Below, piece by piece: positions 1-22,450 of a stretch of 28,589 nucleotides of DNA. The notes beneath the pieces were generated by a model. It searched no databases, was not told the origin of the DNA, and worked only from the letters and a program-made list of their open reading frames with translations. The position numbers and the translations under genes were made by a program. Source of the stretch: a virus; the IMG/VR virus record IMGVR_UViG_3300007074_000072, positions 1 to 28,589 of that record. One strand, given 5' to 3'. The first letter of the stretch is position 1, and every line of letters begins with the position of its first letter.

Positions 1-3000
1 TTGATGTCTTTTAAAGTCAGCCGCAGCCTGTTCTGCCAAAGCTGCCAGATCTTCTTCGTTGGCTTCTATGGCAATTTGTTCAACAGGAGCCGGCTCAGGC
101 GTAGCCTGGGCAGGCGACTGTTGATCTCTAGGATCACTGTCAAGAGGAGGAGGGTTGTTGTTAGTGAATTCTTGCGTTGACGCAGCAGCCTCGGATGTCG
201 GCGCGACATCCTCGGTAGGCGCTGCTTTAATCAACGGCTGCTGATCTGCGTAAAAAGTAAAAGAATCTCCACCCCATTCTAGCTCATCAAATTGAGTGTT
301 TTCTGGGAAAAGCTCCGCAATCCTTTCATCGAATGCAGACAAGACTACTGATTCGAAATGATTACGAAGATCTTTATTCGCTGCCATAACACTTGCAGTA
401 TATTGATCTGCATCCTCAAATTTTCGAGTAAGCTGTTTGTCTTTAAACGTAGCAACATACGTATTCTCTTCACCAGGAATGATCTCAAACTCAGCTTTGA
501 GAACCTGATCTCCAAGCTGATCCATTCTTTCTTCTTGAGAAGAAATAGATTCGTTTGGAGTCTCCATCGTATTATTAGGTGAAGTACCCTCTTTGAAGAA
601 ATCTAGATTATCAGGAGACGGATTGAAATATTCTTCTTGAATACTGGCGTCTGAGGAATTCCAGTTTGTAGTAAAATGAAATTTACCATTAAAAAATTCA
701 CCACCGCTTGGGTCTATAGAATTAGTGTTCCCTTTTTCAAAAAGAGCAAAAACCTCTTTATTGAGAAAACTGTTTAGATAAGAATTTGAACCAAAAGGAT
801 CTTGGTCATCTGCAATAAGCTTCTCAATACGAGCAGTCCATTCAGGATTAAATTCGACTGTATAATTGTTTGAAAGCTCGCCTTCAGCGTCTCTTAAACG
901 AGTGACTCCAAAGCGTAAATCTTTTCTGCTTTTTGCAGAATTCAATTTAGTTGTAGAAACTGTTGGCGCTGCTTTAGGAACAGCACCTTGACTCAAAGCC
1001 TCTAGGCGAACAAGAACAGCTTCTATGTACGCCAGTGTTTTAGGTGCTTTATTAGATAGATCAGACAACCCTGTGCCAAGACCATCTTGAGGGATGACAA
1101 CTTTGCCCCCATTTTTAATATGATCTACAACACGCTGAAAATCCTCATTGAGCTTCTCTTTGTTTTGTTCGTAAGTATCGTCAGACCAAAATGCTTCAGG
1201 TTTTGTAGAAGGAGAGTTCTTGGTGCGTATACCTACAGCATTAGGCTCGCCCCGCATCTCTTTTGCTTGTCCACCTAACCCTTTGCCTTGGTCGTTATCA
1301 CCAAACAAATACAAAGTATCTGGATTGGTTTTTAGATCTGCACGGCTAATGCGCTTTTGGGTTTTAAATTTTGGTTCGTCTTTTTTAACGATTGTTGGCG
1401 TAACGGCTTTAGCAGATGGTGTTGTTGTATTAGTAACTACTGGATCAACAGGCTGAGTGTCTGTGCCCATTTCAAGATCAGCTTTGTATGCTTCGTAAAG
1501 AACTTTGTTTTCAGCTAAAACAAGCAGATCTGCTTTAAGCTTTTCTTTACCTTTATCGCTCAGATCAGTTCTGTTTTTCTGCCTATTAAGCAACTTTTCC
1601 ATAGCTTCGTGTTTTGCAATAAAAGCGCGCTTTTGGCTTTTAAACTTTGGTTCATCTTTTTTGACAGCAGTTGGTTTTGTTTCTTCGGTTGTATCACTGA
1701 TAACCTGTCTAACAGGAGGAACCACAGCTTTAAAATCAACTACGTCTTTAGGACGGAGCATACTCAGCTTAGCAGCAAAGCCACCAACGTAACTAGAGAC
1801 GTCTATAGTGAATGATTTCCCGTTATGATTAAATGTCTGAGGTATTTTTGACTCTCTAACCTCTGCAATCAAATCAATAGTAATACCTGCGATACCTTCA
1901 AATGTTTCTTTGGATCCACGAAGAAAAAAGTAGCTGCCTACTTTTTCGCCTGTTTTTTTGTCATGCACATCATAACTACGCTGAGGATTGTTTGCCTTAA
2001 CATTCCAAGTAGAGCTAACGTTTCTAATTTCATACCCAGCAGGCACAACCGCAAGACCTATGACTTTAACTCCACCTGGAGTAAATGTATAAAGTGTCTT
2101 GGCATCACCCCAATTTTCGGGGTCTCCGTTTGAAAACCATTCAAATGCTGCATCCACATCATCAGGTTTAAAAAGCAGATCTACATCATGCAGCGGGCTG
2201 TTTGCTTTACGGTATATAGGAACTTGGTCTGCATACGCCACAGAGCCAGTAAGAGTAAAATTCAGCCCTGATTTGATCAAAGATGTGAGTACTTGAACTG
2301 CAAGAGGATTGTTACCCATCTCTTTTTGGAAGACTAGTTTCTCAAACCCAGCCTGGGGTTTGAAAGAATAATCGCGGCTTGTAGTGATTCCTGTAATTGT
2401 GTCTGCAAGTGCGCGTTCAATGTTAACAAACTCTTTGCCACTGAAAAATGACATCAATTTATTCAGTGAATTGATAATGGCAGTCCAAACTGTTTTGTCG
2501 ATTTTCGGAGGAGTTCCGGTCTCAAGCCAGCTACGAAGAGATGTCTCGATTACAGATCGTGGGATCTTAACCTTCACAGATTCATTTATGTCTGTGTAAA
2601 GCGCATACGAAAGAGCTCTGGAAGCTTCATCCAAAAATACTGGGTCATCGTTATGAAGACCTGTAATGTATTTACTGGCAATACGCTCAAGATTCAAAAG
2701 ACTAACGTCAGAAGTATCTTCAAACTTGAAATTAAGCTTACTTAGCAATTCACGAGTCTTATCTCGTGCTTCCTTGACAGCAGCAACAGCAGATTCACTC
2801 TGGGTGATATAAGCAGAATCCACCGCGGCAACTTCGTCAGCCACGTCAGCCTTCGGCTGCGTGGCTTCCTCAATCGGTGCCGCTGTCTCAACAGGGATAG
2901 GGTCTTTTTTTGGTGCTTTCTTGGCTTCTTTTTTAGCAGCCTTGTTTTTGATTTTTTGAATAGCTTTGGCGGTTGTCTCATCAAGAGCCAGAATGCTTGA

Positions 3001-6000
3001 CCGCATATAGACTTCATCAAAAATAGAAGAACTAGGGCCTACATTGAACATACGTTTAATGAAGACTTTAACGGCCGCAGCAATTGAAGGACGTGCATAC
3101 TCGTTTTCGGTTTTAAGATCTGACACTTCTTTTTTAGTCAGACCATAAGACATGTACTCATTGATTGCGTACACGTATCCTTGAATACCGCCGCGGTCTT
3201 CGTTGTCATCAATCAATGCATCCATAATAGCTTGGACGCGCTCCATGGTAGCGTTTTCTGGTTCCAAAGCGAGAAAGCCTCGAGCAGAGTTCCAAAGCTC
3301 TTGAGCAGCTTTCTCAGCGTCTGTACGAGCTTCTCCTTGTGCTTCCACTTTAAGAAGGTTTTGATTCAAAACCTCTAATGTGACAGCATGAAACATCTCA
3401 TGCAGCAAATCAGAAATAGAGTCATTGAATACAACGATCTCATTTTTAGCTGGGTCAAACCAACCATCTGATTTGGAGACAGCCTCTGCTGAAGTACCCT
3501 GTCTGACTTTGATGTCTGGATTCAGCTTGAATACAGCACTCTTCTCAATGAGAAGTTTGATTTGTTTTTGAGTAGCTGTCAGATTTTTAAGCGACGACAG
3601 GTAATCAAGAGCTTGTTCTATAGTCGTAAGAGGCTGATCACCAAACAGCTCATCAAGACTCAGAACATCTGAACCTACCTTGGTGAGATTGTCTTTAGCA
3701 ACAGAAGCAGCAGTGGAACCAGGAACAGAACTATCCCTGCCATCATCGGTATTGTTCCGATCAGCGGTTTCTTGACTGGCTTTTTTATCTTTAGATTTCT
3801 TAGGGACATCTTTTGTAGAAACCTCCGGAGCAGATCTTGCAGCTATTTCCGTGAATGGTTTTGTGCCTTCTGGGAACAGCTCAGGAAACTGTTTCAAAGC
3901 TTCATTAAACACGCGAATGCCTGTGTTCGTATCATCAATGACACGACGAAACGTTTCTAAAGAACTTGCATTTTTAGGGTTAACATAAATAGCATTGCCG
4001 TCTTCTTTTGTCGAAAAGCCACCGCCATCCTGACGAAGAGTTTCGTATTTTATGTTACCGTCTTTTCCAGGATTAAGTGGAATAAATATCTCTGACTCAA
4101 ATCCAGCATTTACTTTGTTGATTTGGTTTTGAACCAGATTCTGCAAACGCTCTGCCGCAACTGAAGACTCTATACCTTCAGACTTAGCTTCACCATCAGA
4201 AGCTCTAGACGCTCTTTCAGCACCTTTGAATATGATGGACAAAAGCTTATTAACAGAAGGTACTTCACGATACGGCTGACTGGTAGGTTGGAAAAGAAGC
4301 TGTTTTCTGACTTCTTCCGTAGTATTATCGGTTTGCTCCAGGCTTTTCTGTGTAGCTCCTGTTTTTGACTCACCAGGCGCTTGTGCAGCCTTAGCAACTT
4401 CAAGTGCTTTGAGCTGAATTGGCGTAAACTTAGAGGTGTCTGTGTTGTTCAGTCTCTCTGTTTTGGTGCCAACAGGGTTTTCCATAACATCACGAACCGT
4501 GGCGCTCGTTTTGTTAGATGTGTTAAGGACTTCATTTGCTTTTTCAATGCCTTGAACAAAGGCACGTCCTTGCAAAAGATTATCCAGAGTCATCTTAGCT
4601 ACTTGAGCCATTGTGGGCTCAGGCTTTGCGGTATTTGGTTCAACAGTTGCCGCAGCTTCTAGATCAAAGTCAGGCACAGTATCTCTGAACTCCTGAACTG
4701 CAGCCCATTCTTCGACAGCAAATTCAGATGCAGCAATCAGTTGATCACTGTCTTTATACGCGTCTTTGCTTTTAGGATCAGCAACGAGTTTTTTTAGGAC
4801 ATTCTGGAGTGTAGCCAGTCTGGAACCAGGGATAACATCGTCACTGAATTTTTCTGTGCGTGCTTTATAAACGTCAGATTCAGTGTCAATAAAGACATCT
4901 GGAATTTGTTTGACCTGCTCTAGATTTGCTAGAAGCTCGTCCAAAGCTGCAGGTTCAATGCTACCTGGCTCAGCGGCGAGAATCTCTTGACTGTCTACAG
5001 CTATGCCGTTTGCTTTAGTGACAATGTCATCAAAAATAGTGATGCTTTCCTGAATAGCCTTATCGCCAAGAGGACCTCTTTGCTCCATTCTGGCTCTTTG
5101 CTTATCAGCTAGAATTGCAATGCCGTACTTTGCAATAGATCCTGTTTTATTAGCAACTTTGCCGACTGCGTGAGCAAGCAAAGGCGGAGCAGTAATGATC
5201 TGTGTTGACCACATACCGCCTATCCAACCTTGTGTAGCTGCTTGACCAACACCAGCCGTAAGGTTTTTGTTAGGATCTGCGTATTCTCTTATACCTAGGT
5301 TAGAGGATAGTTGACCCGTGGCACCCTGCCATGTTTCTTCGATTGTTTGAGAAGCAACTGTTTTAATATTTTTGGCAGTGACTGCTCTACTGAAAGGTGC
5401 TGCTTCAAATTTTGCAACACCATAGCCTGCAGCAGTACCCAGAGCTGTTTGTATAAGCTGTGCTCTAACACCAGCTTTATCTGCAATATAAATCTTAGCG
5501 TCTTTTTCAGACCAACCAGCATCAATAAGGGCTTTGTAATCAGGAGACTTCATGAGCTGCTCATGAGTCATTGCGTTTACTTCAGCAATTGCTCCATTGT
5601 AAGCACCCTGGCCTTCTATAAGACCAATAGTCGACGATGTAATTCCTCGTTTAGCAACCTCTTTAGTCCCTGCTTTCAGGGTGGTTGCGGCAAGAAGTCT
5701 GGAACCAAGAGCAGACGTACCGCCTGTAACCAAAAGAGCAGGTCCCGTAGAACCTATTGCCTCTGCTACAAGCTTGCCTTTTACGGATGGATTATTGTCA
5801 AGTACTGCTGCTTCAATAGCAGAATCGCGACCAAATTTACCTACTGCATCAAAAAACTGACCTATTTTGTCATTAGGATCTCTGGCTGCTTTTGTTTGTT
5901 CGTATTTATATTCAGAGTCCGCAAACAATATGTCTCTTTGTCTTTGCGCTACATCTGTCTTTGCTTTCATTGAAGCAGTTTCGCCAGACAAAATTTCTTC

Positions 6001-6498
6001 TTGAATTTTTTTAGTAAACTCTTGGGTCTTGGCTCTGGCTTCTCTCGAGTCTACTTTTGGTTCAACAACACCAGTCATATTGTTGGCAAGAGTAATTGGG
6101 CTGTAGTTTTGTGAAGCACTTACTGTCAGCAAACCAAAGTTAGCAATAATTCCACCAAGGCCAACTACTCCTGCGGCTACCTGACGGCTAGCGTCATTTA
6201 CATGTTCACCAGTAGTACGACTACGAGCTTCAAGTGCTGCATCCGAATAAGGACCTTTATTTGATCCAGGAGCATAAGACTCATAGTCTCTTTTATAGAG
6301 GACTTCGCCGTATTTGCGTCTAAACTCAGTTCCCGTAAGAGCATTGCGATCGAGCTGATACTCTTCTTGAGGACCTATGCCTATTATTGCTTGTCGCACA
6401 GATAGGGGTTGGTAAGAGGGCCTTGTAGGCTCTGTAGCGTTTTTTAAGGATTCCTCACCAAGCAGTTGTAGCTGCTTTCTAAGAACATTATCGCTCAT
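1..6498 (-). CDS. Giant multidomain (polyvalent-type) virion protein, C-terminus outside window
   Basis: The frame is open for 2166 codons from ATG at 6498 (AAGGT upstream, 6 nt after the preceding stop) to the window edge, so the C-terminus is missing. Residues about 107-127 and several later Gly/Ala-rich stretches are hydrophobic. A zincin metallopeptidase signature is visible: HEMFH at 1033-1037 and a possible third ligand E1114 in an NEYMS context. A Pol-beta-type nucleotidyltransferase signature follows: GS at 1418-1419, DVD at 1438-1440, a later acid D1542 in TIDL. Residues about 1718-1835 look macro-like: FGDN, GLGGQA, PNAVGI, then VVIPQDGLGTG. Linkers are rich in Pro, Thr, Ala and Glu. 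Known: N4-like phages encode the ejected virion RNA polymerase (~3500 aa) at this gene position, and multi-enzyme polyvalent proteins are known from phages and conjugative elements. Inferred: an internal virion protein delivered with the DNA. I saw no T7-type polymerase motif (TxxGR and so on) in the visible part; it could lie beyond the edge. Confidence 0.85.
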   Translation of the reverse strand, partial: MSDNVLRKQLQLLGEESLKNATEPTRPSYQPLSVRQAIIGIGPQEEYQLDRNALTGTEFRRKYGEVLYKRDYESYAPGSNKGPYSDAALEARSRTTGEHVNDASRQVAAGVVGLGGIIANFGLLTVSASQNYSPITLANNMTGVVEPKVDSREARAKTQEFTKKIQEEILSGETASMKAKTDVAQRQRDILFADSEYKYEQTKAARDPNDKIGQFFDAVGKFGRDSAIEAAVLDNNPSVKGKLVAEAIGSTGPALLVTGGTSALGSRLLAATTLKAGTKEVAKRGITSSTIGLIEGQGAYNGAIAEVNAMTHEQLMKSPDYKALIDAGWSEKDAKIYIADKAGVRAQLIQTALGTAAGYGVAKFEAAPFSRAVTAKNIKTVASQTIEETWQGATGQLSSNLGIREYADPNKNLTAGVGQAATQGWIGGMWSTQIITAPPLLAHAVGKVANKTGSIAKYGIAILADKQRARMEQRGPLGDKAIQESITIFDDIVTKANGIAVDSQEILAAEPGSIEPAALDELLANLEQVKQIPDVFIDTESDVYKARTEKFSDDVIPGSRLATLQNVLKKLVADPKSKDAYKDSDQLIAASEFAVEEWAAVQEFRDTVPDFDLEAAATVEPNTAKPEPTMAQVAKMTLDNLLQGRAFVQGIEKANEVLNTSNKTSATVRDVMENPVGTKTERLNNTDTSKFTPIQLKALEVAKAAQAPGESKTGATQKSLEQTDNTTEEVRKQLLFQPTSQPYREVPSVNKLLSIIFKGAERASRASDGEAKSEGIESSVAAERLQNLVQNQINKVNAGFESEIFIPLNPGKDGNIKYETLRQDGGGFSTKEDGNAIYVNPKNASSLETFRRVIDDTNTGIRVFNEALKQFPELFPEGTKPFTEIAARSAPEVSTKDVPKKSKDKKASQETADRNNTDDGRDSSVPGSTAASVAKDNLTKVGSDVLSLDELFGDQPLTTIEQALDYLSSLKNLTATQKQIKLLIEKSAVFKLNPDIKVRQGTSAEAVSKSDGWFDPAKNEIVVFNDSISDLLHEMFHAVTLEVLNQNLLKVEAQGEARTDAEKAAQELWNSARGFLALEPENATMERVQAIMDALIDDNEDRGGIQGYVYAINEYMSYGLTKKEVSDLKTENEYARPSIAAAVKVFIKRMFNVGPSSSIFDEVYMRSSILALDETTAKAIQKIKNKAAKKEAKKAPKKDPIPVETAAPIEEATQPKADVADEVAAVDSAYITQSESAVAAVKEARDKTRELLSKLNFKFEDTSDVSLLNLERIASKYITGLHNDDPVFLDEASRALSYALYTDINESVKVKIPRSVIETSLRSWLETGTPPKIDKTVWTAIINSLNKLMSFFSGKEFVNIERALADTITGITTSRDYSFKPQAGFEKLVFQKEMGNNPLAVQVLTSLIKSGLNFTLTGSVAYADQVPIYRKANSPLHDVDLLFKPDDVDAAFEWFSNGDPENWGDAKTLYTFTPGGVKVIGLAVVPAGYEIRNVSSTWNVKANNPQRSYDVHDKKTGEKVGSYFFLRGSKETFEGIAGITIDLIAEVRESKIPQTFNHNGKSFTIDVSSYVGGFAAKLSMLRPKDVVDFKAVVPPVRQVISDTTEETKPTAVKKDEPKFKSQKRAFIAKHEAMEKLLNRQKNRTDLSDKGKEKLKADLLVLAENKVLYEAYKADLEMGTDTQPVDPVVTNTTTPSAKAVTPTIVKKDEPKFKTQKRISRADLKTNPDTLYLFGDNDQGKGLGGQAKEMRGEPNAVGIRTKNSPSTKPEAFWSDDTYEQNKEKLNEDFQRVVDHIKNGGKVVIPQDGLGTGLSDLSNKAPKTLAYIEAVLVRLEALSQGAVPKAAPTVSTTKLNSAKSRKDLRFGVTRLRDAEGELSNNYTVEFNPEWTARIEKLIADDQDPFGSNSYLNSFLNKEVFALFEKGNTNSIDPSGGEFFNGKFHFTTNWNSSDASIQEEYFNPSPDNLDFFKEGTSPNNTMETPNESISSQEERMDQLGDQVLKAEFEIIPGEENTYVATFKDKQLTRKFEDADQYTASVMAANKDLRNHFESVVLSAFDERIAELFPENTQFDELEWGGDSFTFYADQQPLIKAAPTEDVAPTSEAAASTQEFTNNNPPPLDSDPRDQQSPAQATPEPAPVEQIAIEANEEDLAALAEQAAADFKRHQ
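1351..1389 (-). repeat. Linker repeat in giant gene, copy B
   Basis: Encodes VKKDEPKFKTQKR (residues 1704-1716), immediately before the macro-like domain. It is nearly identical to VKKDEPKFKSQKR encoded at 1627-1665, and the upstream residues (PT.V) also match. Confidence 0.8.
1627..1665 (-). repeat. Linker repeat in giant gene, copy A
   Basis: Encodes VKKDEPKFKSQKR (residues 1612-1624), 276 nt before copy B in reading order. The two copies bracket a ~80-residue charged helical segment, suggesting a duplicated domain junction. Confidence 0.8.
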
Positions 6499-6504
6499 GA
6501 GGAT

Positions 6505-8337
6505 TTACCTTCTAGCCGTGTTCATATCACCAAAAAACTGTTCCATCCTAAGTTCTTGTATTTCGGCATCCCGTTCTGGACTAGGAGAAGTCGCCAATAG
6601 TCTTGCCATACCACTTTGGCCTAAAGCGCCTACTTCGTTATTCATGTACGATGAAAGACCGGTCAACATATCAATTTCTTCGTCACGCAGTTTACTGAGT
6701 TTCTGCATCTCTGCTTCGCTTCCTTTTTGAGAAGCAAGCACATACTGTAATTCCAATTCTTTAATTTTAGCTTCTGAATTTTCAGCCAAAGCAACTTGGC
6801 GGGCTATTCTTACTCTTTTGGCCGCAACCTCACCTGTATTTGTTTTACGCCAAGCTTCGGCTTTTTTCTTAAAAGAATTAAAGTCTAATTCTCGTACACC
6901 ATATTCTTTACCGCCAGGAATTAGTAATAATGGATTTGTGTTAGATTTGATAGTGTCTTGCAGTATAGCAAGAATTTCACCATCAGTCATAATTCTACCA
7001 CCTTCAAGTTTTTGTTCTTTTTGAAAGTTGGTAATTTTTGTTCTCATAGCATTAGGAATAACTTGAATTCCGTTAGCATTTTGAAGATCAAATGCTTCAA
7101 ACAATTTAACCTGAGTGCCGTCAGGTTTAACAACGTTGTTATTAAATTGTTCTGCTTCAATAAATGTTTTAAGAAAAGGATCTGTTTGCTGAAGAAGCTT
7201 TGCGTTGGCCAAAATAGAGCCAACTTCACTGGCAATGTTTACGTTGTTACGAGCGTAGTCTTCTGATACACGTTTGGCGTACAACTCACGATTAGCTAAG
7301 TCTTCTCGACTGCTTATATTTGAATTCGCAGCATTACCTGGATTTTCTCTCCTCCGTGCGGTTTGAATGTCTACAAAAGCGTTCGCGTCGCCTAATATAT
7401 CGATACCCGCACCAGCAAGCTGATTAGGATCAGTGGTTTCATAGATATTTTTTACAGCATTGGTGAGATACAAAGCGTCTTCTGGGCTCATAGTGCCATC
7501 TCGTACCCTTTTTTGCACATCTTCATAAACGGAGTTTACATTTACGTATCTATTAGCAAGAGCATTTGCTTTTTTGTCCAGCTCTCTATTATTTTGGGCT
7601 TGAGTAGCAAGCCGATCTGCTTCTGTGGCAGCTATTTCAGAAGCTCTATTGATATAATCATAATCTGTCTTTAACTGACTATCCACCATATCTCTGTTGC
7701 GGTTTTCATCAGAGTTTTTATCTCGAGCACTTCTATCAGTTTCAGCAGTGGCTAGAGCAGTAATGCCTTGTTCCATTAAGTTGCTGGCGTTATCTCCATA
7801 TGTTGCCTGCAAGCGAGAAAGATTCTCTGCTACAAACGCACGAAAGCCTTCTACATCCCCACTAGTCGACAGCACGAAAGCTTGGCTTATTACGTCAGCT
7901 TCTTTTGTATTAAACTCATTTGTAAGGTTTGTTGCGTCAAGAGTAGCTCGGCTCATATCTGCTTGAGTACCTGCAAATCTATTGTCTTGTTTAAGACCTT
8001 CTCTGATGAGCAAGCTTTCTTTAGATTTTGCTATCTGTTCAGCGCCGCCTACAATAGCGCCAAAAGGGTTAGAAGCATTAAATGCTTCCATCTCTTTACC
8101 TACATTTAAAATCTCATCTTCGCTCTTAGCGTTGGTTGCTTTGAGCGTAAAATACTCAAGAGCGCTGTTCTGCATTTTTTCTTTTTGAGCGGCGTCTCGT
8201 GCGTCTTTTCTCGCACCCAGGTTTGTAAGCCCAGCACCAATTGCGGCTATTCCACTTGCTGTTTGATTAGCAGCAGAGGCCATACCTTCGGTATCAATAC
8301 CTGTAGGCAGACCGATAGAATTGAATCTAATAGCCAT
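6505..8337 (-). CDS. Internal virion / ejection-type protein, 610 aa
   Basis: ATG at 8337 is preceded by AGGAAACACCA, a strong ribosome site that recurs at other starts in this window. The protein begins with an Ala/Gly-rich segment (about residues 18-42) and continues as a long, charged, mostly helical chain with many Ala, Glu, Gln and Asn residues. No signal peptide or catalytic motif is evident. It lies between the 155-aa protein and the giant gene (6-nt gap), the place where N4-like and T7-like phages keep proteins ejected from the capsid. The internal-virion role is inferred from position and composition, not from a recognised domain. Confidence 0.8.
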   Translation of the reverse strand: MAIRFNSIGLPTGIDTEGMASAANQTASGIAAIGAGLTNLGARKDARDAAQKEKMQNSALEYFTLKATNAKSEDEILNVGKEMEAFNASNPFGAIVGGAEQIAKSKESLLIREGLKQDNRFAGTQADMSRATLDATNLTNEFNTKEADVISQAFVLSTSGDVEGFRAFVAENLSRLQATYGDNASNLMEQGITALATAETDRSARDKNSDENRNRDMVDSQLKTDYDYINRASEIAATEADRLATQAQNNRELDKKANALANRYVNVNSVYEDVQKRVRDGTMSPEDALYLTNAVKNIYETTDPNQLAGAGIDILGDANAFVDIQTARRRENPGNAANSNISSREDLANRELYAKRVSEDYARNNVNIASEVGSILANAKLLQQTDPFLKTFIEAEQFNNNVVKPDGTQVKLFEAFDLQNANGIQVIPNAMRTKITNFQKEQKLEGGRIMTDGEILAILQDTIKSNTNPLLLIPGGKEYGVRELDFNSFKKKAEAWRKTNTGEVAAKRVRIARQVALAENSEAKIKELELQYVLASQKGSEAEMQKLSKLRDEEIDMLTGLSSYMNNEVGALGQSGMARLLATSPSPERDAEIQELRMEQFFGDMNTARR

Positions 8338-8352
8338 TGGTGTTTCCTGACA

Positions 8353-8820
8353 TTAAGCAGACAGAGTCTGATCTTCAACTTGCTTACGGTTTTTAGCACG
8401 ATCTGCTAGTTCACGATCATGATCTTCTTTGGACATATTGTATTGTTTGGTCCAAGCATCTTTTTGAAAATTAAGGCTTTTTCCCGCTAGCTTGGTTTGT
8501 TTAAAACCTTGAATGACACTAAACAGACCGGCAAGTGACTGGGCTACATTACCCATCATGCCAAATCTACCGCCCCAATCGGTTTTACCATCACCAAAAT
8601 TAGGTGTCCCATTCGCTCCTGTGGCAGACATATGGCCTCCAGCAATGCGAGAGTCATTTGAGATAGATCCAGGTGCGTACTGGGTATCATTGTAAAAAGG
8701 ATTAGCTGGTCCTGCAGAACCAAAGCCAGCAATACTTGTTGAGATTGGTTGAGCTGTAGGGAGCGTTGAAGACCATAGAGAACTGGTGCTTTGCGGCTTA
8801 GGTAACGGTGTCCAATCCAT
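8353..8820 (-). CDS. Small internal virion protein, 155 aa
   Basis: The first ~90 residues are rich in Pro, Ser, Thr, Gly and Asn and look disordered. A hydrophobic stretch (about residues 90-105) is followed by a charged helical tail with an NFQKDAW...KQYNMSKEDHDRELADR pattern. Small proteins with this shape (flexible start, one helical hydrophobic patch, Gln/Asn-rich tail) are common next to internal core proteins of podoviruses. ATG at 8820 follows AGGATATTTATT. The gap to the next gene is 15 nt. The virion role is inferred from context; no enzymatic motif is seen. Confidence 0.75.
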   Translation of the reverse strand: MDWTPLPKPQSTSSLWSSTLPTAQPISTSIAGFGSAGPANPFYNDTQYAPGSISNDSRIAGGHMSATGANGTPNFGDGKTDWGGRFGMMGNVAQSLAGLFSVIQGFKQTKLAGKSLNFQKDAWTKQYNMSKEDHDRELADRAKNRKQVEDQTLSA

Positions 8821-20473: not shown

Positions 20474-22450
20474 TTAACTTTCCCAAAAAAGTCCACCACC
20501 TTTAGTGTATTGAATCGATTTTCCTGCTGCATCTGTAATTGTTGATACTACAAGATATTCAACAGATTTAACAGGTGTTTGGGAACCTGCTGATATAGAA
20601 AACGTAGCACTTGTTGGGCTATTTAATGTAACGGAAATGTTGTTCAGATTTGCTGTTTTGACTAGCTGATGTGAGTATGTGTATGGAGCAACACCACCTG
20701 TTGGTGTTAGCGTGATCGATCCAGTGTTGTTAGTTCCTGTGCCTATCTTAACTTTTACGTACACACCTGAGTGTGTAACAGACATTGATGCGCCTAATGC
20801 GCTATTTCCAAAGTAAACTTTACCATCTGTCGCCAAAGCAAAAACACCATTTGTTTTTGTTTCAGAGTTAAGAGCGACAGAGTTGAGTCCATACCACTGC
20901 AAAAGAGTGTTACTTACTCCAAATGGGCCACCATACCTAAATCTGTATTCGCCTGCGATTGTGTAAAACGTGTCTTTTGTTGATTCAAACGTAGTGGCTG
21001 TGCCAAGGTCAAGAGCGTCTGCTCGAAGCTTAATATTAGCTGCTGATAGCTCAATCACACTGCCGTAGGTTGTTCCATCTTCTAGACTAACAAAAGCGCC
21101 TACACCACCCCCGCTAACAGATATGCTGTATTTACCCGCTAAGTTACCTTCAATATCAGCAAGCGTTGAAGCTTGAACAGACACTGTTGAAGAAAGCCCT
21201 CCAACAGTGGAGCTTAGTGTTGTAACAGTGCCTGCTATAGCTGAATCCGCAGAAGCTCTAGTTGAAGCTTCTGTAGAGATGCTCGCAGAGATGCTTGCAG
21301 ATAAGGCAGTATCAGCCAAAGCAAACTGAGAACGAATAAGCGTTCTGTCTGTGGCAGCTGCTGAAATTGCAGTAGTTCGAGCAGTTTGCTCTGTCAAAAT
21401 ATCAGCACTAAGCAAAAGATCGGCTGCTTCAAAAGCACTTTCAATTGTGAGTATAGACGCAGCAAGGGCTTCGTCTTCAGTTACATAAGCCAACTCAATA
21501 GAAGTAACTGACGCGTAATTAGCGTTATTTGATACTTGAAGTGCGTTAATTTGGGTCGCTTGGTTTAGACTAACCGCGGACAAACTATTTATTTGAGAGA
21601 GCTGACTTGCGCTTTCAGCCGTAAGAACCAATTGCTGTGCTGCTGTATCAAACGTGACTGTTTGGAGTTCAATAAGTGAAGCAGCAGTGTCTTCTCCTAC
21701 AGCTTCAAGAGCGGTGATTCGGCCTATTGTTGTCAGGTTTGAAAAAACAAACTCGTTGAATGCAATTTCGTTGACATCAAGATCATCACGTAAACCATCA
21801 AGCAAAAGATCAATAGAATCTAGACGACCATCTGGATCAAAAAAAGAAGGTTCTAGCCCTGCAAGAGCCGTGTTCACTACAGCTTGAGCCAAAGAACCTA
21901 TCTCAGCATTTGTTCTAGGTGTCGGAAGTAGTAGATCTACCTGAGCCAGGATGCTTGTTTCCAAAGCAGTCAGTTGAGCTTGAACCGCTGTGACATCAGC
22001 ATTGTATGCAGCCAGTGTTGTATAATCTGAAAACTTATTTGTATTAGCTAAGATTGCTGCGTCCGCGGCAGCTAAAGCTGCCACGTTCGCAGCAATCCCA
22101 TCAATTAGCACTTGGTGAGCAGCAACATCAAGAAAGCCTGTAGAACCTATTGGACCTATAAGACTTTCGAGCCATTCAGCTGGTGTACCAACAAAGCCTT
22201 CAACCAGAGCCAGCTCATAAGCATTGGCTCCCTGGAAAATAGTAATGTCTTTAAGAATATGGTGATCGACGTTCTCATCTGAGAGAAGCGTCAAGTTACG
22301 ATCGAGGTTGAAAAGACTCTCGAGATAATAACTGACATGAGCAATTTGAGGTAAGAGAGCTCTTACCTCCTCGATCTGCGCCCACATATTACCAAGACGC
22401 TTATCGACGAGTCCTGATGGATTAGCAAAAGGACTGGACGTTGGTCTCAT
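20474..22450 (-). CDS. Tail fibre / appendage protein, 658 aa
   Basis: Residues ~1-75 look like a virion anchor (VDKRLGNMWAQIEEVRALLPQI). A short segment GFVGTPAEWLESLIGPIGST (about 84-103) follows, typical of fibre proteins around a collagen-like turn. Residues ~110-430 are an Ala/Ser/Thr/Leu-rich helical rod with repeating ITALEA/SLIELQ/ASVTSIE units, a probable trimeric coiled coil. SISVSGGGVGAFVSLEDG resembles the fibre region of lambda J-type central fibres (DUF1983-like). The C-terminus is beta-rich and includes TLTPTGGVAPYTYSHQL, as in small Ig/PKD-like domains. It overlaps its upstream neighbour as TAATG. It probably corresponds to the N4 appendage position and binds the host surface. 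Confidence 0.85.
   Translation of the reverse strand: MRPTSSPFANPSGLVDKRLGNMWAQIEEVRALLPQIAHVSYYLESLFNLDRNLTLLSDENVDHHILKDITIFQGANAYELALVEGFVGTPAEWLESLIGPIGSTGFLDVAAHQVLIDGIAANVAALAAADAAILANTNKFSDYTTLAAYNADVTAVQAQLTALETSILAQVDLLLPTPRTNAEIGSLAQAVVNTALAGLEPSFFDPDGRLDSIDLLLDGLRDDLDVNEIAFNEFVFSNLTTIGRITALEAVGEDTAASLIELQTVTFDTAAQQLVLTAESASQLSQINSLSAVSLNQATQINALQVSNNANYASVTSIELAYVTEDEALAASILTIESAFEAADLLLSADILTEQTARTTAISAAATDRTLIRSQFALADTALSASISASISTEASTRASADSAIAGTVTTLSSTVGGLSSTVSVQASTLADIEGNLAGKYSISVSGGGVGAFVSLEDGTTYGSVIELSAANIKLRADALDLGTATTFESTKDTFYTIAGEYRFRYGGPFGVSNTLLQWYGLNSVALNSETKTNGVFALATDGKVYFGNSALGASMSVTHSGVYVKVKIGTGTNNTGSITLTPTGGVAPYTYSHQLVKTANLNNISVTLNSPTSATFSISAGSQTPVKSVEYLVVSTITDAAGKSIQYTKGGGLFWES

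Follow-up and report, generated by a model that had tools for sequence, protein, structure and literature searches.

In bacteriophage N4, the virion RNA polymerase (vRNAP) is packaged in the particle, ejected together with gp51 and gp52, and transcribes the early genes. The N4 protein, gp50 (3,500 residues; PDB 11gp, 9pnr and related entries), is built in the order N-terminal domain (NTD), RNA polymerase (RNAP) domain, C1 zincin and C2; its residues 907–1006 are a low-complexity linker joining folded domains, the HExxH of C1 was noted in the structure, and the protein has been proposed to thread a channel of ~35 Å like beads on a string (PMC12633501). Neither that structural paper nor the other literature we examined reports the N4 C1 zincin to be active as a protease. 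Reference vRNAPs range from 2,842 to 3,820 residues (PMC10654107). That N4-like vRNAPs can be polyvalent has been known since 2017, when Iyer et al. described them as fused to at least one zincin MPTase, in some cases with an ART, lysozyme or PBECR domain as well, and proposed autoproteolysis or host modification for such domains (PMC5512222). In the "polyvalent" vRNAPs of Roseovarius Plymouth podovirus 1 and other Rhodovirinae (PMC5512222), the extra domains lie between the NTD and RNAP, in a slot of 503–667 residues, and include a second HExxH.

Here we describe a vRNAP of 4,816 residues whose gene begins in a 28,589-nucleotide stretch of viral DNA (the window; IMG/VR record IMGVR_UViG_3300007074_000072). 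One uninterrupted open frame (1–6498, minus strand) encodes 2,166 residues before it runs off the window edge. The original prediction had placed this frame in the vRNAP slot of an N4-parallel gene order, and offered two alternatives, namely that a polymerase lay past the edge after an enzyme-rich half, or that the polymerase had been replaced by a polyvalent effector. When IMG/VR was scanned with the protein, a contig of 70,866 bases was recovered, IMGVR_UViG_3300025601_000016, which carries the same gene at 100% identity and extends it further, and in which the full-length ORF is one intact frame of 14.4 kb. Rather than ending soon after the edge, the gene runs on to residue 4,816, with the RNAP domain, C1 zincin and C2 in residues 2167–4816 (L002:16499–24451, outside the window). 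As anticipated, the window part has no TxxGR motif, which occurs past the edge at 2613–2617, and N4 vRNAP domains are found downstream of residue 2166.

The complete protein matches PHROG_2206 (virion RNA polymerase) with E = 0, over both the conserved N-terminal domain and the C-terminal C1/C2 region. Three Pfam N4-vRNAP domains fall within residues 2520–3331, each above cut-off, and the solved N4 vRNAP structures match residues 2307–4811 (phmmer, E ~1e-184). The polymerase domain, at about residues 2300–3377, is intact and has the features of a T7-like RNAP: STNGR at 2613–2617, the motif A Asp, the motif B R-K-Y and the motif C Asp. Seven catalytic positions (R2617, K2629, D2765, R2900, K2904, Y2912 and D3232) are present and invariant in 12/12 aligned vRNAPs; in N4 numbering, STNGR 2613–2617 corresponds to the motif with R424, D2765 to D559, R2900 to R666, K2904 to K670, Y2912 to Y678 and D3232 to D951. 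The window part, which holds no polymerase motif, had left room for replacement by an effector, but an intact polymerase with all the catalytic residues checked follows it; we rejected replacement on reading the continuation and give it a negligible probability. It is the first alternative that the continuation contig bears out, encoding a full RNAP domain.

Within the window, residues about 1–911 (3766–6498, minus strand) are the vRNAP N-terminal (injection/membrane) domain (PHROG_2206 34–915, E 7e-61). By tblastn this domain matches 304 phage records, for which the annotation, among the matches listed, is mostly virion RNA polymerase, and it was also checked in an alignment of 12 vRNAPs; the window by itself is thus enough to recognise the protein as a vRNAP. 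We conclude, with a probability of roughly 0.8, that the giant protein is a true member of the N4-type virion RNA polymerases, with cargo-slot anatomy in its NTD-RNAP linker. By homology to N4, it is probably packaged in the virion and injected.

The genomic setting was also correctly predicted. Terminase, gp67-like, lysis, portal, gp57-like, capsid, gp55-, gp54-, gp53- and gp52-like genes follow one another in N4-like order and lead to the giant gene, which sits after the gp51/gp52 ejection genes of an N4-like late operon, as judged by comparison with N4 and other phages. The gp52-position ejection protein is encoded at 8353–8820 (minus strand; phrog_2646, E 2e-11), and the gp51 (periplasmic tunnel) slot is assigned by position only to a 610-residue protein (6505–8337, minus strand) that has no PHROG and no significant Pfam family. 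A 658-residue protein at the appendage position (20474–22450, minus strand) contains a SprB repeat at a Pfam E of 4e-6, just below cut-off. Since the longer contig also encodes an N4-like DNA polymerase, primase, SSB, both N4-type RNAPII subunits, ligase, terminase and portal, the phage is equipped with the usual N4 genes for transcription and replication.

The giant vRNAP is like gp50 in its NTD-RNAP-C1 zincin-C2 order, genomic slot, catalytic residues and C1 HExxH. However, where N4 has a low-complexity linker of ~100 residues, the slot here is ~1,390 residues long and holds a second C1-type zincin, a nucleotidyltransferase (NTase)-like region and a DUF7831 domain. The insert comprises ~1,300 residues, about 915–2230. 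The distance between the NTD and RNAP is 1,389 residues, compared to 157–609 in eleven reference vRNAPs (218 in N4 with the same profile boundaries); in the alignment the insert is missing from 11/11 of these references, and the same insert was not found in any close relative. Linkers rich in Ala, Pro, Glu and Lys and of low hydrophobicity occur at ~880–940, ~1180–1240, ~1600–1720 and ~2080–2170, with folded-looking segments between them. A 12-residue linker repeat, KKDEPKFK(S/T)QKR, is present in two copies, KKDEPKFKSQKR at residues 1613–1624 (1627–1662, minus strand) and KKDEPKFKTQKR at residues 1705–1716 (1351–1386, minus strand). The motifs on which the original prediction was built are all where it put them: HEMFH at 1033–1037, E1114, GS at 1418–1419, DVD at 1438–1440, D1542, FGDN at 1732, GLGGQA at 1740 and IPQDGLGTG at 1802. 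Those of the zincin and of the FGDN–IPQDGLGTG segment exceed chance, as the profile matches given below show. For the region at residues 1850–2085 (244–951, minus strand), Pfam and PHROG scans gave weak matches only (phrog_3066, E 9e-4; Nmad5, E 0.011).

Base composition is even along the gene, with no step at the insert, and so gives no support for recent acquisition. It also bears on whether the insert might have been misjoined to a vRNAP during assembly. Only one source lineage is known and the two contigs may come from related assemblies, but the 14.4-kb frame is uninterrupted as well as even in composition, the two contigs are identical in the gene through residue 2166 (their 7 mismatches in 28,589 shared bases all fall elsewhere), the zincin copy is derived from a vRNAP and, as described below, the slot is a recurrent insertion site. 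We therefore consider an artefact very improbable.

The insert zincin (residues 957–1173; 2980–3630, minus strand) matches PHROG_2206 at positions 2032–2244 (E 3e-16), the post-polymerase zincin region of that family. A C1 profile detects it with a domain E of 4e-19, and of 2e-14 when the model is built without the giant protein; the same profile finds the normal post-polymerase C1 at 3397–3623 (E 4e-29). Its HEMFH motif (residues 1033–1037; 3388–3402, minus strand) aligns with the protein's own HELVH at 3482 and with N4 HELVH at 2228, and E1114 of NEYMSYG (3157–3159, minus strand), the candidate third zinc ligand, aligns with the Glu that C1 zincins conserve in NEFMA(Y/W). Profile match, HExxH and downstream NEFMA-type Glu together mark a C1-type zincin. 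In a set of 3,026 ORFs taken from about 80 loci, the giant vRNAP alone has two C1 domains (L020, also listed, is the same contig), and all of the 85 proteins that the C1 profile matched at E ≤ 10 are vRNAPs. We rejected a foreign origin on the basis of this match. As judged from sequence, the insert zincin arose by duplication of the C1 zincin within the vRNAP itself and has since diverged. The zincin of the original prediction is thereby supported, as a copy of a domain that N4-type vRNAPs already have after the polymerase.

In the domain tree the insert zincin has a branch length of ~6, which is too long for the tree to give its C1 source lineage. Such strong divergence could mean relaxed constraint and, because no protease activity is reported for the N4 C1 zincin, the duplicated copy could be structural. 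On the other hand, an active copy might cut the vRNAP at its linkers after ejection, freeing the polymerase from a membrane-bound NTD and releasing the cargo beads. Autoproteolytic release was proposed by Iyer et al. for the MPTases of vRNAP-like polyvalent proteins (PMC5512222), and here the zincin is placed between the NTD and the cargo with low-complexity linkers on both sides. However, N4 vRNAP is packaged unprocessed despite having a C1 zincin, and neither a cleavage site nor an activity is known; we regard autoprocessing as unlikely.

The second segment, at residues about 1385–1600 (1699–2346, minus strand), was picked out by motifs only. Residues 1416–1589 read LTGSVAY...HDVDLLF...GITIDLI...KLSMLRPKDVVDF, in which an hG[GS] helix, a Dh[DE]h and a third acidic strand are all present in order. 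Such an ordered motif set is typical of Pol-beta nucleotidyltransferases. The composite pattern, which was written after the sequence was seen, occurred in none of 20,000 shuffles. The region belongs to no Pfam or PHROG family, tblastn in phages found no homologue, an IMG/VR scan found the same phage only, and comparison with the PDB gave matches at chance level only. A single-sequence AlphaFold prediction for residues 1342–1858 gave a pLDDT of 37 and no usable fold. We discarded a single plasmid match (E 0.5) as chance, as by inspection it lies in a dehydrogenase-like reading frame. Taken on its motifs, a Pol-beta NTase assignment is plausible.

The third segment, residues 1713–1826 (1021–1362, minus strand), had been described as a macro-like module and is in fact a DUF7831 domain (PF25176; Pfam E 9e-46, and 2e-47 on the slice). 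Macro domains have a six-stranded central sheet and a GxG loop for ADP-ribose. An AlphaFold2 model, for which the window domain was aligned to 46 relatives from viral contigs, is confident (pLDDT 91.2, pTM 0.83) and has about five strands. Against the PDB it matches nothing at E ≤ 0.001, the top match being the phosphatase Tk-PTP (E 0.07, TM 0.35), and no macro domain appears among the 50 PDB matches listed. Its confident BFVD matches are to DUF7831 proteins from phages and giant viruses and to segments of large crAss-like phage proteins. Because the confident model matches no macro structure listed from either the PDB or the viral library, the macro reading is not supported and we rejected it.

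Relatives of the domain on viral contigs are 32–52% identical and homologous over its full length. The giant vRNAP retains the conserved core of the family, although its apparent invariance is partly selected, as several of the search peptides came from KEMRGEPN and other conserved stretches. Proteins with this domain (PF25176, phrog_2072) differ from the giant vRNAP in their setting. In many large phages DUF7831 is a small stand-alone protein. At 15 loci, some of them near-identical, it lies inside a family-B DNA polymerase (PolB) between the exonuclease and polymerase domains (L111:1891–5028, L114–L116, L118–L124, L127, L132, L157 and L158; PolB of about 1,035–1,055 residues). Furthermore, as part of crAss-type RNAP polyproteins, it is found downstream of the RNA polymerase domain at five loci, where the assignment is based on a match to PDB 6vr4 for L107 (L107:1–6351; E 1.5e-22), on homology to L107 for L130 (L130:1–5277), and on the DxDID motif only for L129, L131 and L137; L129, L130, L131 and L137 carry DFDID or DYDID. 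The giant protein is the only N4-type vRNAP found here with DUF7831, and counting it the domain is attached to three unrelated polymerase types. We found no mention of DUF7831 in the literature searched. Our tentative proposal is that DUF7831 is a compact, polymerase-associated alpha/beta module with an FGDN...GxGGQA...RGEPN...GI.TK core, which viruses have joined on separate occasions to three or more unrelated polymerases (the N4-type single-subunit vRNAP, the crAss-type DxDxD virion RNAP and the family-B DNA polymerase), where it might handle a nucleotide or ADP-ribose-like ligand, and that the vRNAP linker might be a general port for time-zero effectors; taken as a whole, we think this somewhat more apt to fail than to hold. 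In a different large viral protein, L109, a circularly permuted YpsA SLOG domain (residues 803–960) is joined directly to DUF7831 (residues 1011–1121).

Other vRNAPs also carry domains in the NTD-RNAP linker. In about 70 vRNAPs the distance between the NTD and RNAP varies from about 117 to 1,389 residues and exceeds 300 in roughly a third, a fraction that is indicative only since the survey covered 80 of the 112 retrieved loci and included near-duplicates (e.g. L024–L029). Pfam places ART-PolyVal in the slot of six (L059, L023, L066, L053, L049 and, below cut-off, L093), Peptidase_M90 in that of three (L027, L046 and, below cut-off, L086), and a sub-threshold GNAT in that of L067. The slots of Rhodovirinae vRNAPs also have an HExxH, which the C1 profile does not match, and in some IMG/VR vRNAPs the slot HExxH belongs to Pfam Peptidase_M90. 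As the zincin of the present insert is of the C1 type, this slot has received zincins of two kinds or more. The giant vRNAP is like those of the Rhodovirinae in having extra domains and a second HExxH at this place, and unlike them in its cargo, which in the Rhodovirinae is ART-PolyVal plus an HExxH domain outside the C1 profile; no ART domain was found in the giant protein by Pfam. Domains of effector type have repeatedly been inserted into the NTD-RNAP linker.

A large multidomain protein that combines a transcription enzyme with further domains fits the polyvalent architecture by sequence, with injection and cargo activity putative. Our reading of the anatomy described above is that the linker grew from the usual ~120–250 residues to ~1,390 by the addition of cargo domains between Ala/Pro/Glu/Lys-rich linkers, the cargo being the diverged second C1 zincin, the NTase-like domain, DUF7831 and the region 1850–2085. 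By homology to N4, the 4,816-residue protein would be packed into the particle, pass through the tail one small domain after another and be set free in the host, and its T7-like RNAP would there transcribe the early genes. With cargo and polymerase on one polypeptide, the cargo would be in the cell as soon as infection starts, with no need to be synthesised there. Family resemblance suggests that it would most likely be directed at the host or at the newly formed transcription complex, with NMP transfer as the candidate activity of the NTase, nucleotide or nucleic-acid handling that of DUF7831, and a peptidase or scaffold role for the zincin copy. We regard injected cargo as the likeliest reading of the insert, and put catalytic cargo acting in the host at a little under even odds.

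The insert could also be a structural spacer, that is, a non-catalytic tether or capsid-packing region in which the zincin copy and the NTase-like region are dead remnants. This would suit the strong divergence of the insert zincin, the lack of reported activity for the N4 C1 zincin in the structural paper (PMC12633501), and the existence of other long slots without a recognisable enzyme, such as that of L070 (1,096 residues). However, for all this divergence nothing has been lost from the HExxH, the NEYM Glu or the complete GS/DxD/D/K/RxKD set, the conserved core of DUF7831 is retained, and recognisable enzyme families occupy the slots of other vRNAPs, which makes a spacer rather unlikely in our estimation.

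The flexible NTD-RNAP linker of the N4-type injected polymerase can accommodate over 1,300 residues of added domains, and because it has been used repeatedly for insertion it marks a site at which phages load proteins whose action would begin with the onset of infection. The giant vRNAP is an upper-size case for models of ejection through a narrow tail channel, and its insert zincin, NTase-like region and DUF7831 are concrete candidates for single-domain study. DUF7831 is also revealed as a recurrent partner of viral polymerases. Its recurrence with polymerases appears to be new, as do the size of 4,816 residues, the C1 duplication, the presence of DUF7831 and an NTase-like region in an N4-type vRNAP, and the linker as a common cargo site.

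Two further vRNAPs have unusual features. In L070 the slot spans about 1,096 residues (about 449–1545; L070:1346–4636) and contains no Pfam family. In L043 the post-polymerase zincin (about 2138–2273) apparently has no HExxH and the slot has HELMH at 1012, which could reflect a functional swap or a sequencing error.
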